From: Synergistota bacterium | GTDB taxonomy: Bacteria > Synergistota > JAGHAJ01 | Assembly (NCBI GenBank): GCA_021161545.1 | Contig: JAGHAJ010000084.1 | Span: 1 to 5,231, forward strand | Direction of reading: 5' to 3' | DNA: 5,231 bases | In this document: positions 73 to 4,469 of the stretch, piece after piece | Layout of the letters: the number at the start of each line of letters is the position of its first letter | Position numbering within the stretch: position 1 is the stretch's first letter | Notes under the pieces: model-generated | Database searches by the model: none | The model's input: the letters and a program-made list of their open reading frames with translations, nothing else | What the model was told of the DNA's origin: nothing | Position numbers and translations under genes: made by a program

Positions 73-975
73 TTGGAAGAGAAAAAGTATGTAGGTGGTC
101 AGGCTGTTATTGAGGGAGTTATGATGAGGAGTCCTCAGCGGGTAGCTGTGGCGGTAAGGTTACCTGATGGGGGTGTAGATGTGTCGTCTTGGAGTAGTGT
201 GCCGTTGCATGCAAGAAATAGTTTTTTTAAGATGCCTTTTGTCCGTGGTATGTTTGTTCTGATTGACTCCTTAGTGTGGGGTATTAAGACACTCAACTAT
301 TCTGCAAATAAGACCCTCGAAGAGGAAGAGGAGAAACTGTCCACGAAAGACATAGTACTTTCGGTTGCACTTGCGATTGGAATGGCAGTTGGACTGTTTA
401 TAGTTTTGCCTAAACTTGCTGTGACCTTTCTTGTACAAGGTCATTCGATGTTTGTTTCAAATGTTATAGAGGGAGGTATAAGGGTATCATTCTTCATACT
501 GTACATATGGATAATAGGATTAGTGCCTGATATTAGGAGAGTTTTTGAGTATCATGGGGCTGAGCATAAGACCATTATGGCGTATGAGGCTGGTGCAGAG
601 CTAAAGCCACAGGAGGTCATTAATTATACACGCTTTCATCCAAGGTGTGGTACAGCCTTTATTCTTGTTGTTTTGGTAATAAGTATATTTGCTTTTTCAC
701 TTATAGACATACATCATAATTTGTGGTTCAGGATATTGGGTAGAGTCATTGTTTTGCCTGTTATATCTGGTGTGTCGTATGAAATTATTAGACTTGCATC
801 CAAGAATAGTACAGTAGCTGCGCTGTTTATAAAACCGGGATTGTGGCTGCAATATCTGACTACGAGGAATCCATCGGAGGATCAGTTAGAAGTGGCTATA
901 GCCTCTCTTAAAGCTGCTTTGGGAGATGAGGAAAAAGATGTGGGAAGCGTTGAAGTCAATAGAGAATCGATATGA
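73..975 (+). CDS. DUF1385 family integral membrane protein (YqhQ-like)
   Basis: This 300-residue protein is a full-length member of the DUF1385 family, whose biochemical role is not established as far as I know. Family hallmarks are clear: [12 protein letters not shown] at residues 8-19, PFVRG at 55-59, HGAEHKTI at 161-168 and HPRCGT at 189-194. The conserved His, Glu and Cys residues suggest a metal site or catalytic centre, but that is inference. Hydrophobic segments lie near residues 95-118, 133-152, 194-212 and 220-236, so it is a multi-pass inner-membrane protein. A charged EEEEE stretch (83-87) precedes the first segment. The start is TTG at 73, chosen from the strong ribosome-binding site and because the GGQAVIEG motif normally lies within the first ten or so residues. 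Its last codons overlap prfA, and DUF1385 genes commonly accompany prfA/prmC. The conserved linkage hints at an envelope or translation-related housekeeping job, but no function can be assigned. Confidence 0.9.
928..932 (+). promoter_or_regulatory. Shine-Dalgarno site deciding the prfA start
   Basis: GAGGA ends 5 bases before the ATG at 938, a normal spacing. The alternative ATG at 926 is directly abutted by GGGAG (921-925) with no spacer, which is unfavourable. This favours 938 as the prfA start. The site lies within the coding end of the DUF1385 gene, so translation of prfA is probably coupled to it. Confidence 0.5.
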
Positions 976-2008
976 AGAGATAGAAAAGAAAATGGAAGAC
1001 CCGTCCTTAGTAACGAACGTTAGTGAGTTGATGCGTTTGTCGAAGGAAAAGGCAGAAATAGAGGAGATAGTTAATAAGTATAGAGCATATAAAGGTGTTG
1101 TTGAAGAGCTGAAACAAACAAGGGAAATGCTCTCTACTGAAGCTGATCCTGAGTTTAGACAGATGGTAGAGGAAGAGATAGGTAATTTGGAAAAACAAAA
1201 AGGCAAAATGATTGAAGAGCTGAAGTTTATGCTTATTCCCAGAGATCCGAATGATGAAAAAAATGTAGTGGTGGAGATAAGAGCAGGAACTGGTGGCGAT
1301 GAGGCAGCCCTCTTTGCAGCTGATCTCTATAGAATGTATATAAGATATGCAGAGAGAAAAGGTTGGAAGGTGGAAATAGTTGAGTTGAACGAAACTGCCA
1401 TTGGGGGGTTTAAGGAAATAACCTTTTTAGTGGAGGGGAAAGGCGCATATAGTAGGTTGAAGTTTGAGAGTGGAGTCCATAGGGTACAAAGGGTCCCTGT
1501 TACCGAAGCAGGTGGAAGGATTCATACCTCTGCGGCTACTGTAGCTATATTGCCTGAAGCAGAGGAGATAGATATAGAGATTAACCCTGATGATATAAGA
1601 ATAGACACATTTAGAGCCTCTGGAGCAGGGGGGCAGTATGTGAATAGGACTGATTCTGCAGTAAGAATTACCCATTTACCAACAGGAATTGTTGTTAGTT
1701 GCCAGGATGAGCGTTCTCAGATAAAAAACAGGGCAAAAGCCATGAAAGTTTTACGTTCACGTCTGTTAGACATGAAAAGAAGAGAGCAGGCGGAAAAGAT
1801 GGATAATATGAGAAGGGTGCAGATAGGTAGCGGTGATAGGAGTGAAAAGATAAGAACGTATAACTTCCCGCAGAATAGAGTTACGGATCACAGGATAGGC
1901 CTCACCCTTTACAAACTTGCGTCGATACTCGATGGGGAGCTTGACGAGTTAATAAATGCACTCATAGCTGCAGAGCGAGCAGAAAAGCTGAAGGCTGTGG
2001 TGGAATGA
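938..2008 (+). CDS. prfA: Peptide chain release factor 1 (RF1)
   Basis: RF1 recognises UAA and UAG in the ribosomal A site and triggers hydrolysis of peptidyl-tRNA. From ATG 938 the protein has 356 residues, the usual length; an in-frame ATG at 926 would add MRKK. The start at 938 is favoured because family members begin near the IENRYEE-like stretch and because of its better-spaced ribosome-binding site. An N-terminal coiled-coil-like domain is rich in Glu and Lys. The codon-recognition tripeptide is PVT (residues 187-189), the P-x-T type of RF1 rather than the SPF of RF2. The catalytic GGQ is at 231-233 (bases 1628-1636), its glutamine being the target of PrmC encoded next. The residue after GGQ is Tyr instead of the usual His, followed by VNR as in RF2, and the usual RSQHKN appears as RSQIKN. 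The gene overlaps the DUF1385 gene by 38 bases and prmC by 4 (ATGA). It reads as a functional RF1. Confidence 0.97.
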
Positions 2009-2838
2009 GGATAAGAGAATTGGTTAAATGGTCAAATGATACCTTGCAAAGCTCAGGGAATATTAGCGGTATGGAATCTCTTTATATAGTTGGTGTGCTT
2101 CTTGGTGTTGACAGGGCTAACTTGATTGCCCGTATGGATGAATCTATCGATGAGGACATTGAAGATGTATTTAGAGATATAGTTTCAAGGAGGTGTAAAG
2201 GTGAGCCTTTGCAATACATACTGGGTTTTGCTGATTTTTGGGGAATGAAACTTAGGGTGTCTCCGGGTGTGTTTATTCCACGAGCAGATACAGAGGTAGT
2301 AGTAGAAGTTGCACTAAAATATGCCTCTTTGATGGATAAAAATATTAAGATGATAGACGTGGGTACAGGTAGCGGTAACATAGCTATTGCAGTTGCAAAG
2401 GAACTAAAAAACGCAGAAGTTTTTGGCCTTGATATCTCCACACAAGCTGTAGAATTGGCTAAGATTAATGCCAAGATGCAAAAAGTAGATATTGGCTTTT
2501 TTGTATCAGATATGTTTTCTTCTCTCCCGGAGAGAGAAGAATTTGATGTGATAGTTTCTAATCCCCCATATATCCCCTCTGTAGAGATAGAGAAATTATC
2601 CACTGAAGTTAAGGGATATGAACCCATCTCCGCGCTCGATGGGGGCGTAGATGGAGCTCGTTTTTATAGGCAGCTTTTTAATGAGGCTCTATTTAGACTT
2701 GCTAAGGGTGGTATCCTTGTAGTGGAGATAGATCCTAATATAGAGGAAAGGCTTATTGATATGTTGGATGTATTTGAGAGGTTTGAAATTCACAGGGATT
2801 TGTCAGGTAACGATAGAGCATTAGTATGTTGGAGGTGA
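2005..2838 (+). CDS. prmC: Release factor glutamine N5-methyltransferase PrmC
   Basis: PrmC (HemK) transfers a methyl group from S-adenosylmethionine to the side-chain amide of the GGQ glutamine in RF1 and RF2, which improves termination. The 277-residue protein has the family layout: a small helical N-terminal substrate-recognition domain (about 1-75, ending in GEPLQYILG at 66-74), then PRADTE at 92-97, the SAM-binding motif [13 protein letters not shown] at 117-129, an acidic residue in GLDIS (141-145), and the catalytic NPPYIP at 186-191. EPISALDGG (206-214) and the C-terminal DLSGNDR (265-271) are also typical. Length is normal and nothing essential is missing. The start overlaps the prfA stop as ATGA, so it is probably translated by ribosomes finishing prfA; only a weak GGTGGA precedes it. 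Placing enzyme directly after substrate is a widely conserved arrangement. A perfect inverted repeat lies within the gene at 2517-2541. Confidence 0.97.
2517..2541 (+). repeat. Perfect 10-bp inverted repeat (hairpin) inside prmC
   Basis: The arms TTCTTCTCTC (2517-2526) and GAGAGAAGAA (2532-2541) are exact reverse complements separated by the 5-base loop CCGGA. The region encodes the [10 protein letters not shown] stretch (residues 171-180) between SAM motifs and NPPY. There is no T-run after the right arm, so it does not look like an intrinsic terminator. It may be a by-product of Ser codons facing Arg/Glu codons, or an mRNA structure affecting decay or translation of the operon transcript. 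Confidence 0.55.
2831..2838 (+). promoter_or_regulatory. Strong Shine-Dalgarno site for trxB, embedded in the prmC stop
   Basis: GGAGGTGA is an uninterrupted match to the anti-Shine-Dalgarno complement and ends 6 bases before the trxB ATG at 2845. Its last bases are the final Arg codon and TGA stop of prmC. It is the best ribosome-binding site in the window, suggesting trxB is translated more strongly and more independently than its neighbours. Confidence 0.75.
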
Positions 2839-2844
2839 AATTGT

Positions 2845-4047
2845 ATGTCGGAGGAAAAGATTTATGATTTGATAATAGTTGGTGGTGGTCCTGCAGGCCT
2901 TTCTGCTGCTATATATGCAAGTAGGGCAAAACTTGATACCCTTGTGCTTGAGAAGAACTTTGTTGGTGGACAGATGGCAAATACAGATATAATAGAGAAT
3001 TATCCTGGCTTTCCTGATGGTGTTAGCGGCTCTGACCTTGTTAGCAGGATGGAAGAGCAAGCAGAAAAGTTTGGTGCAGAGATAGATTTTGCTGATATAG
3101 AAGGAATTGAAGTAGATGGTGCTGTAAAAAGGTTGAGAACCTCAGAGGGAGATTACCTAAGTAGGGCTCTTATAATAGCTACAGGGACCGAACAGAGGAA
3201 GTTGGGTGTAAAAGGTGAGGCAGAGTTTACTGGAAGAGGAGTTTCTTATTGTGCAGTGTGTGATGGTGCGTTTTACACGGATAAGGTTATAGCGGTGGTT
3301 GGTGGTGGTAATTCTGCTGTAGAAGAAGCTGTATATCTTACCAATTTTGCTTCTAAGGTTTATCTTATACACAGGAGGGATTCTTTAAGGGCTGAGAAGT
3401 TGCTTCAAGAGAGGCTGTTTGCGAATGAGAAGATAGAAGTTGTCTGGAATAGTGTGGTCACGGAGATAAAAGGGGATAAGTTTGTTGAGGCTGTTAGCAT
3501 TAAAAACCTTTTGTCAGGTGAAGTTAAGGATCTGGCTGTATCTGGTGTATTTGTATATGTTGGTGTGGTGCCGAATTCACAGGTGTTTAGAGGTGTTCTG
3601 GAACTTGATGAGTGGGGGTATATAAGAACAAACGAGGAGATGGAAACATCTGTGGATGGTGTTTTTGCAGCTGGTGATGTACGAACTTCAGTCTTAAAGC
3701 AAGTTATCACAGCAGCGGCTGAGGGAGCGATAGCTGCAACCTTTGCAGAGAAGTACGTGAGAGAGCAGGTTTACTTTGACCAGAATATATCTTCTGGTAA
3801 GAGAGTAGTAGTGGTTTATAGTTCCATTACAGATGAGGGGAGAGAAATCGTTAAATGTATGTCTGAGCTTGAAGCAAGCAATGTCATTGCAATAGATGGA
3901 TATAAAAACAGCAGAATATCCAAGAAACTGAATGTAGAGAAGTTTTCCGCAGTGAGGATCTTTGATAATGGTAAAGAAGTATTTAGTAAGGATGGAGTTG
4001 CTGTGCATGAGATAGTAAATATGTTGAAGGAACAGGGGATCGTATGA
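2845..4047 (+). CDS. trxB: Thioredoxin reductase with C-terminal degenerate thioredoxin-like domain
   Basis: The enzyme uses NADPH and FAD to reduce the thioredoxin disulfide in the cytoplasm. Residues 1-310 are a standard low-molecular-weight thioredoxin reductase: FAD-binding GGGPAGL at 13-19, GGQM at 41-44, ENYPGFP at 51-57, the redox-active disulfide CAVC at 136-139 followed by Asp140, NADPH-binding GGGNSAVEEA at 153-162, HRRDSLRAEK at 176-185 (arginines that contact the 2'-phosphate and favour NADPH), and FAD-contacting GDVR at 277-280. The family usually ends around 305-320 residues; this protein has 400. The additional 80 or so residues resemble a thioredoxin fold lacking its active-site cysteines (see the domain entry). 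The reading frame and composition continue smoothly, so this looks like a genuine fusion and not a frameshift. Start ATG follows a strong ribosome-binding site. The stop overlaps the next start (ATGA). Ferredoxin-dependent or other disulfide reductase variants are less likely given the HRR motif. Confidence 0.95.
   Translation: MSEEKIYDLIIVGGGPAGLSAAIYASRAKLDTLVLEKNFVGGQMANTDIIENYPGFPDGVSGSDLVSRMEEQAEKFGAEIDFADIEGIEVDGAVKRLRTSEGDYLSRALIIATGTEQRKLGVKGEAEFTGRGVSYCAVCDGAFYTDKVIAVVGGGNSAVEEAVYLTNFASKVYLIHRRDSLRAEKLLQERLFANEKIEVVWNSVVTEIKGDKFVEAVSIKNLLSGEVKDLAVSGVFVYVGVVPNSQVFRGVLELDEWGYIRTNEEMETSVDGVFAAGDVRTSVLKQVITAAAEGAIAATFAEKYVREQVYFDQNISSGKRVVVVYSSITDEGREIVKCMSELEASNVIAIDGYKNSRISKKLNVEKFSAVRIFDNGKEVFSKDGVAVHEIVNMLKEQGIV
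3799..4044 (+). other. TrxB C-terminal domain: thioredoxin-like fold without CXXC or cis-proline
   Basis: These are TrxB residues 319-400. An ungapped by-eye alignment to E. coli thioredoxin places the strand VVVVYSS (321-327) on VDFWAE, TDEG (329-332) on the catalytic CGPC, and REIVKCM (333-339) on the following helix. Further on, NVEKFSAVRIFDNGKEV (363-379) matches the GIRGIPTLLLFKNGEV region, so Ser368 replaces the cis-proline and Ala369 the next Thr. A final amphipathic helix VHEIVNMLKEQ matches the thioredoxin C-terminal helix. Only one cysteine, Cys338, remains, outside the active-site position. The domain therefore cannot perform dithiol exchange; a docking, dimer-stabilising or regulatory role is inference. 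The fold call comes from pattern reading, not a profile search. Confidence 0.6.
4034..4040 (+). promoter_or_regulatory. Shine-Dalgarno site for the EamA gene
   Basis: AGGGGAT lies 3 bases before the ATG at 4044, inside the last codons of trxB. Together with the ATGA stop-start overlap it supports translational coupling and this start codon. A second candidate, AAGGA at 4027-4031, is 12 bases away. Confidence 0.45.
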
Positions 4048-4469
4048 AGGCAGAGTACCTTGCGATTATGACAGCTGCACTCTGGGGAATAGGGAGCTTT
4101 TTTGAAAAAAAGGGACTTTTGCTGGGGCATTTGGCTCCTGGGGTAGGAGCTGTAATACGGACTTCTGTAGCGTTTGTTATCCTGTTCTTATTTGCCCTTC
4201 CTCATGTAGGAGATATTACAAAAGCAGGGTATAAACCCATATTGCTGATTGCCATTGGTGGGGGATTACTTGCAGGTGCTCTGGGTATAATCTCGTTTTA
4301 TGCGGCATTGAAGGTTGGGTCCTTAGGTAGAGTACTGCCAATAGCGTTTACATCTCCATTCTTTGGAGTCTTAGTTGCAGTCATTATGGGGACTGAAACG
4401 ATAACCATGCGAGTAGCATTAGGGATGTTGTTGACAATATCTGGTATTGTGGTGTTGACATGGAAGTAA
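4044..4469 (+). CDS. Single-domain EamA/DMT superfamily membrane protein
   Basis: This 141-residue protein corresponds to one EamA unit, about half the roughly 300 residues of classical drug/metabolite transporters, which carry two. About five hydrophobic segments are visible near residues 3-20, 32-53, 65-86, 96-116 and 122-140. Typical EamA features include ALWGIGSFFEKKG at 12-24 and the helix-rich end from FYAALKVGS (85-93) through PIAFTSPFFGVLVAVIMGTE (99-118) to GMLLTISGIVVL (127-138). One-domain versions are known in many bacteria and presumably work as dimers. It sits in the cytoplasmic membrane, and the substrate cannot be read from the sequence. It starts in an ATGA overlap with trxB and ends 10 bases inside tsaC. 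The reading frame ends with a clean TAA immediately after the last helix, so it is not an obvious truncation of a two-domain gene: the following DNA is tsaC, not a second EamA half. Confidence 0.85.
   Translation: MKAEYLAIMTAALWGIGSFFEKKGLLLGHLAPGVGAVIRTSVAFVILFLFALPHVGDITKAGYKPILLIAIGGGLLAGALGIISFYAALKVGSLGRVLPIAFTSPFFGVLVAVIMGTETITMRVALGMLLTISGIVVLTWK

Follow-up and report, generated by a model that had tools for sequence, protein, structure and literature searches.

The trxB locus and its reductase core

The window, i.e. the whole stretch of DNA analysed (5,231 nucleotides of contig JAGHAJ010000084.1 from a Synergistota bacterium), encodes a thioredoxin reductase, TrxB, that is extended at its C-terminus by a second, predicted thioredoxin-like domain (Table 1). 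The gene closes the order DUF1385–prfA–prmC–trxB (window 73–4047; L116–L127), which is conserved across much of Synergistota; several tail-less lineages carry trxB at a different locus. Immediately downstream, the trxB stop codon overlaps the start (ATGA) of a gene for a single-unit EamA transporter (141 aa, window 4044–4469), and in family f3 a 62% identical EamA copy lies near trxB (L134, 1294–1731), followed by sua5. One genome (G020, L032) holds prmC and trxB in a single open frame of 728 aa with no intervening stop, and a comparably long frame of 741 aa spans trxB in another (G064:C171). These long frames are possibly natural fusions, or merely reflect a missing stop between two genes.

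Table 1. Features of trxB and its upstream neighbours, with positions in the window; residue numbers refer to TrxB.
Feature	Position	Strand	Basis
prfA and prmC, upstream of trxB	926..2838	+	Part of the conserved DUF1385–prfA–prmC–trxB order
trxB, NADPH-type thioredoxin reductase with predicted C-terminal pseudo-thioredoxin, 400 aa	2845..4047	+	CDS translation; TIGR01292 above cut-off at residues 7–305
CAVC (136–139), redox-active motif of the reductase core	3250..3261	+	CxxC invariant in 115 tail-bearing proteins
HRRDSLR (176–182), NADPH motif HRRxxxR	3370..3390	+	HRR and R182 in 115/115 tail-bearing proteins
C-terminal helix (287–316), predicted to continue past residue 307 or so, where TrxB usually ends, and to join the tail through almost no linker	3703..3792	+	AlphaFold2 model
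Predicted pseudo-thioredoxin domain (319–400), beta-alpha-beta-alpha-beta-beta-alpha	3799..4044	+	Structure models, fold searches, profile comparisons
TDEG (329–332) at the thioredoxin CxxC place, with conserved SSI (326–328) just before it	3829..3840	+	Family alignments
Cys338, sole cysteine of the window tail, not conserved	3856..3858	+	Alignment of 115 tails
DGYKNSR (351–357), most conserved motif of the tail	3895..3915	+	D351 99%, Y353 89%, N355 92%, R357 87%
Ser368 at the cis-proline position	3946..3948	+	Pro in 114/115 aligned proteins

The sequence-only reading had described the reductase core as intact, and our analysis agrees. Residues 7–305 scored 404 bits with TIGR01292, whose cut-off is 343, and CAVC and HRRDSLR are accompanied by GGGNSA (residues 153–158), corresponding to GxGxxA, and by GDVR (277–280), leaving both NADPH motifs (GxGxxA and HRRxxxR) intact. 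The thioredoxin-binding motifs of thioredoxin reductases are GR/KG and FF (PMC9025218); the window protein contains GRG and reads AFY at the place of FF. Variation in the thioredoxin-binding motif of the core tracks lineage rather than the presence of the tail. The loss of a thioredoxin-binding Arg was considered as a sign of an occupied groove and rejected, since this loss likewise follows lineage. The core would act as a normal NADPH-thioredoxin reductase that reduces the separate thioredoxin of the genome. Such a free thioredoxin, with the active site WCVPC, is encoded elsewhere in the window genome, and the tail was therefore rejected as a substitute for a missing one.

Fold and active-site counterpart of the C-terminal extension

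An AlphaFold2 model of TrxB built with 25 relatives (pLDDT 88.7) placed residues 287–316 in one continuous helix, followed three residues later by a strand–helix–strand–helix–strand–strand–helix succession at residues 320–396. Modeled alone from 100 sequences, the tail reached a pLDDT of 89.4. When this tail-alone model was compared with the PDB using Foldseek, the best matches were thioredoxins (E 4e-6, TM 0.73 by query length), and among the matches listed all PDB structures were thioredoxins or related or designed thioredoxin folds. VIA-align 2 yielded a Z of 11.7 and an rmsd of 2.0 over 87 residues; in most of its rows the match begins at about thioredoxin residue 12 and runs to the end, with chiefly the first strand missing. 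A search of PDB sequences with the tail profile retrieved mostly thioredoxins and designed thioredoxin folds (best E 1.8e-4), and hhalign related the same profile to the free thioredoxins of the phylum at P 1e-6, as good a value as that of the active second fold of TIGR03143. Pfam Thioredoxin (PF00085) matched the tail alone at E 0.005 and 17.2 bits, below the gathering cut-off of 23.5. The PDB matches included no solved structure of a tail-bearing reductase. By prediction, from both models and profiles, the tail is a thioredoxin fold without CxxC, as had been proposed from the single sequence, and the suggested profile comparison with thioredoxins revealed the expected homology.

Family alignments also upheld the ungapped reading in which CGPC becomes TDEG, placing D-x-x-Q at the same site in most relatives and S-x-x-S in clostridial tails. 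The central idea of the sequence-only reading stands. Two further residues singled out in the sequence-only reading lost their significance once relatives were aligned: Cys338, suggested as a possible regulatory thiol, occurs in one of 115 tails, and the replacement of the cis-proline gains no support as a design feature, being confined to the window, where Ser368 rests on one assembled genome. Retention of redox or other chemistry, through the lone thiol of Cys338 or the Asp or Ser replacing the cysteines, would fit the finding that about 85% of relatives carry Asp and Gln in place of the two cysteines. We nevertheless consider it highly improbable, given that Cys338 is unique, that no CxxC stands at the active-site place in 114 tails or in 22 clostridial tails, and that the single CxxC pattern found, in L186, lies away from the site at the far C-terminal end of the tail. 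Other positions are nearly invariant, with Asp at 351 in 114 of the 115 tail-bearing proteins and Gly at 376, within the NG turn of the window tail (residues 375–376), in all of them. Residues 304–318 are conserved among tail-bearing relatives and absent from tail-less ones.

Distribution, selection and origin of the tail

Within the window's phylum, 137 of 185 genomes gave a match to the tail profile. These matches span 11 of 12 families, and nearly all fall in TrxB reading frames of 390–445 residues. The remaining matches were contig fragments, frames open upstream and two weak matches to free thioredoxins; apart from these two, the tail occurs only on TrxB within the phylum. Genera g50 and g51 of family f2 (G148–G162) mostly carry a tail-bearing TrxB, and Pfam Thioredoxin matches are weak or absent in several of their genomes. 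A separate deep clade, made up of the window and family f3, also has the tail. In family f6, trxB occupies its usual position in the conserved gene order but has no tail, and in family f4 tail-less genes are nested within the tail-bearing clade; the tail was therefore lost more than once.

Median dN/dS over 28 disjoint pairs, some of them distant and almost saturated for synonymous changes, was 0.14 for the tail and 0.058 for the core, with closer pairs likewise far below 1. On these substitution patterns, the tail is under purifying selection across the family. Of 20 strongly conserved positions the window tail retains 12, compared with 7–8 in family f3; it is divergent, yet no more so than its nearest kin. 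Repeated loss, together with the mere 12 of 20 positions and the missing cis-proline in the window, could be read as the signature of a vestige, the thioredoxin half of an old TrxB–Trx fusion that is dead and whose deletion is still to come. Such a history is improbable, and already disfavored family-wide, in view of a dN/dS far below 1, the near-universal cis-proline (114/115), D351 (99%) and G376 (all), and the retention of the tail over most of the phylum and part of Bacillota. The claim that the extension is not incidental is borne out by the homolog survey: both a non-thioredoxin structure and an unconserved tail were tested for, and neither occurred. Nothing was found in favor of an incidental tail or an unfolded frameshift product, which is refuted by fold, conservation and selection and to which we give virtually no credence.

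Outside the phylum, we sampled Bacillota as the group around a Thermosediminibacter genome (398 genomes) and found the tail in 59 of them, with few exceptions on TrxB-like frames about 400–440 residues long. Eighteen of the 22 clostridial tail-bearing genes examined lie in glycine/betaine/sarcosine reductase clusters, mostly adjoining an active TrxA and frequently in the order GrdX–TrxB–TrxA–GrdE–GrdB. Judged by the NADPH motifs taken from PMC10880999, all 22 clostridial proteins lack HRRxxxR and have VIHDEG-like letters at that place, in keeping with reductases that do not use NADPH; their electron donor may therefore be ferredoxin or another protein. In L259, the tail stretch FWSPSSEES aligns without gaps with FWSPKCEPC of the adjoining TrxA, both cysteines being replaced by serine; in the window's phylum Asp and Gln prevail at these two positions. 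Profile comparison gave P 1.3e-17 between phylum and clostridial tails, and P 5e-22 between clostridial tails and grd TrxA. A tree of tails and thioredoxins, calculated from few columns by a quick method, united all free thioredoxins in one branch with 100% support and left the tails outside. Since every tail falls outside the free-thioredoxin clade, the simplest history is a single old TrxB–Trx fusion with early loss of the cysteines (CxxC to SxxS or DxxQ). The tail thus appears to share one old fusion with the clostridial glycine-reductase-operon reductases, a connection that goes beyond the sequence-only reading. The fusion may have reached both groups either by descent or by transfer, as the core tree does not resolve this part. 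The dead first fold of TIGR03143 was rejected as a source of the tail for lack of similarity (P 0.28).

Traces of the glycine reductase connection are also found within Synergistota. Two tail-bearing genomes (G010 and G023) have trxA within a grd operon and trxB elsewhere, and in G014 and G035, both of genus g8, trxB lies beside grd genes. All 12 tail-less genomes of g8 lack GrdB, and 22 of its 27 tail-bearing genomes have it (Fisher 1.6e-6, kinship ignored). A GrdB search of the window genome (82% complete) and of the f3 genomes gave no match, but the tail is retained in G000, G002 and G006; in f6 the situation is reversed, with GrdB present and the tail absent. Strict dependence of the tail on glycine reductase was rejected on account of f6 and of those tail-bearing clades, the window's among them, that are without GrdB; the link is historical or partial, not obligatory. 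That the tail serves as a built-in pseudo-substrate, a dead glycine-reductase thioredoxin holding the TrxB–TrxA–GrdA relay together as a complex and kept or repurposed in the window lineage, where glycine reductase was not detected, strikes us as rather doubtful.

Proposed role of the tail and comparison with known systems

The tail is a real, conserved domain that probably serves binding rather than chemistry. Its strictest conservation across the family falls on the former-CxxC loop, the DGY[K/R]N loop and the cis-Pro loop. Thioredoxins hold their partners through just such loops, namely the CxxC-site, DGY[K/R]N-type and cis-Pro loops, and as the most strictly kept surfaces of the tail coincide with these, a docking face is its most likely function. 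We accordingly give about an even chance to the reading in which a rigid, redox-dead tail on a working NADPH-TrxB forms a non-catalytic docking face for a partner. The core would reduce the separate WCVPC thioredoxin, while the tail, carrying no electrons itself, would act as a rigid extension of the C-terminal helix and dock a partner of the thioredoxin relay (TrxA or a TrxA client) close to the reductase. In the glycine-reductase relatives, the docked partner would plausibly be GrdA. Several observations speak against this role. Lineages that lack glycine reductase, including the window genome and its nearest relatives, still have the tail, so that a GrdA-type client is not required; all of f6 and some genera have TrxB and no tail, which makes the tail dispensable; and in the window itself the cis-proline is lost.

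Just as well, the conserved loops could be turned towards the body of the reductase itself. It is possible that the tail acts as an internal brace or regulator, packing on the extended helix and the partner subunit to stabilize the dimer, limit the rotation between the flavin-reducing and flavin-oxidizing states or cover the thioredoxin groove. Almost no linker separates the domains, the extended helix (304–318) is conserved, and the connection seems too short to allow NTRC-like shuttling; moreover, the C-terminal tail of cyanobacterial FFTR acts on the flavin of the other subunit (PMC12796991). Because the C-terminal helix of thioredoxin reductase ends at the dimer interface (PMC8564101) and the linker is short, bracing comes close to docking in likelihood. 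It fits less well with conservation being strictest on the thioredoxin partner loops and with a core thioredoxin-binding motif that varies irrespective of the tail.

Fusions of thioredoxin reductase to an active thioredoxin are known. For a fusion to a dead thioredoxin that is conserved this widely, the literature searched, which covered few subscription journals, yielded no earlier description, and no model was found in Pfam or NCBIfam; as far as this literature goes, the conserved fusion is undescribed. It suggests that central redox metabolism also employs the thioredoxin fold in a non-catalytic capacity. Low-Mr NADPH-TrxB (TIGR01292) resembles the window protein in its FAD and NADPH domains, CxxC, GxGxxA and HRRxxxR, but lacks the 95 extra residues that form the second domain. 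In the TrxB–Trx fusion of Mycobacterium leprae, the C-terminal thioredoxin domain is reportedly redox-active. NTRC is likewise a reductase with a C-terminal thioredoxin-fold domain (PMC4988983, PMC9025218); its domain is redox-active, whereas the window family lacks CxxC throughout and has almost no linker. AhpF and its homolog family (TIGR03143) also combine a TrxR module with thioredoxin folds, one of them without CxxC, but they have two such folds, the second active, compared with the one fold without CxxC in the window protein, which scored 367 bits against TIGR03143 (cut-off 687.65). In TIGR03143-type proteins of 545–583 aa (L128–L132), CxxC is missing from the first C-terminal segment, and the second, thioredoxin-like segment carries CTMC or CTLC. 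FFTR shares the TrxR fold, and, like it, the clostridial tail-bearing relatives lack the NADPH motif; the window protein, by contrast, keeps both NADPH motifs, and the FFTR chains in the PDB (288–320 aa) have no such domain. The clostridial grd-operon TrxBs (L236–L259) share with the window's family a homologous pseudo-thioredoxin tail, the DxYRN motif, the cis-Pro and the absence of CxxC. They differ in having mostly Ser and other residues, not Asp/Gln, in place of the cysteines, in lacking HRRxxxR and in being encoded next to trxA and grd genes. The shared tail connects the Synergistota reductases with the clostridial glycine, betaine and sarcosine reductase operons, in which electrons are transferred via TrxA.
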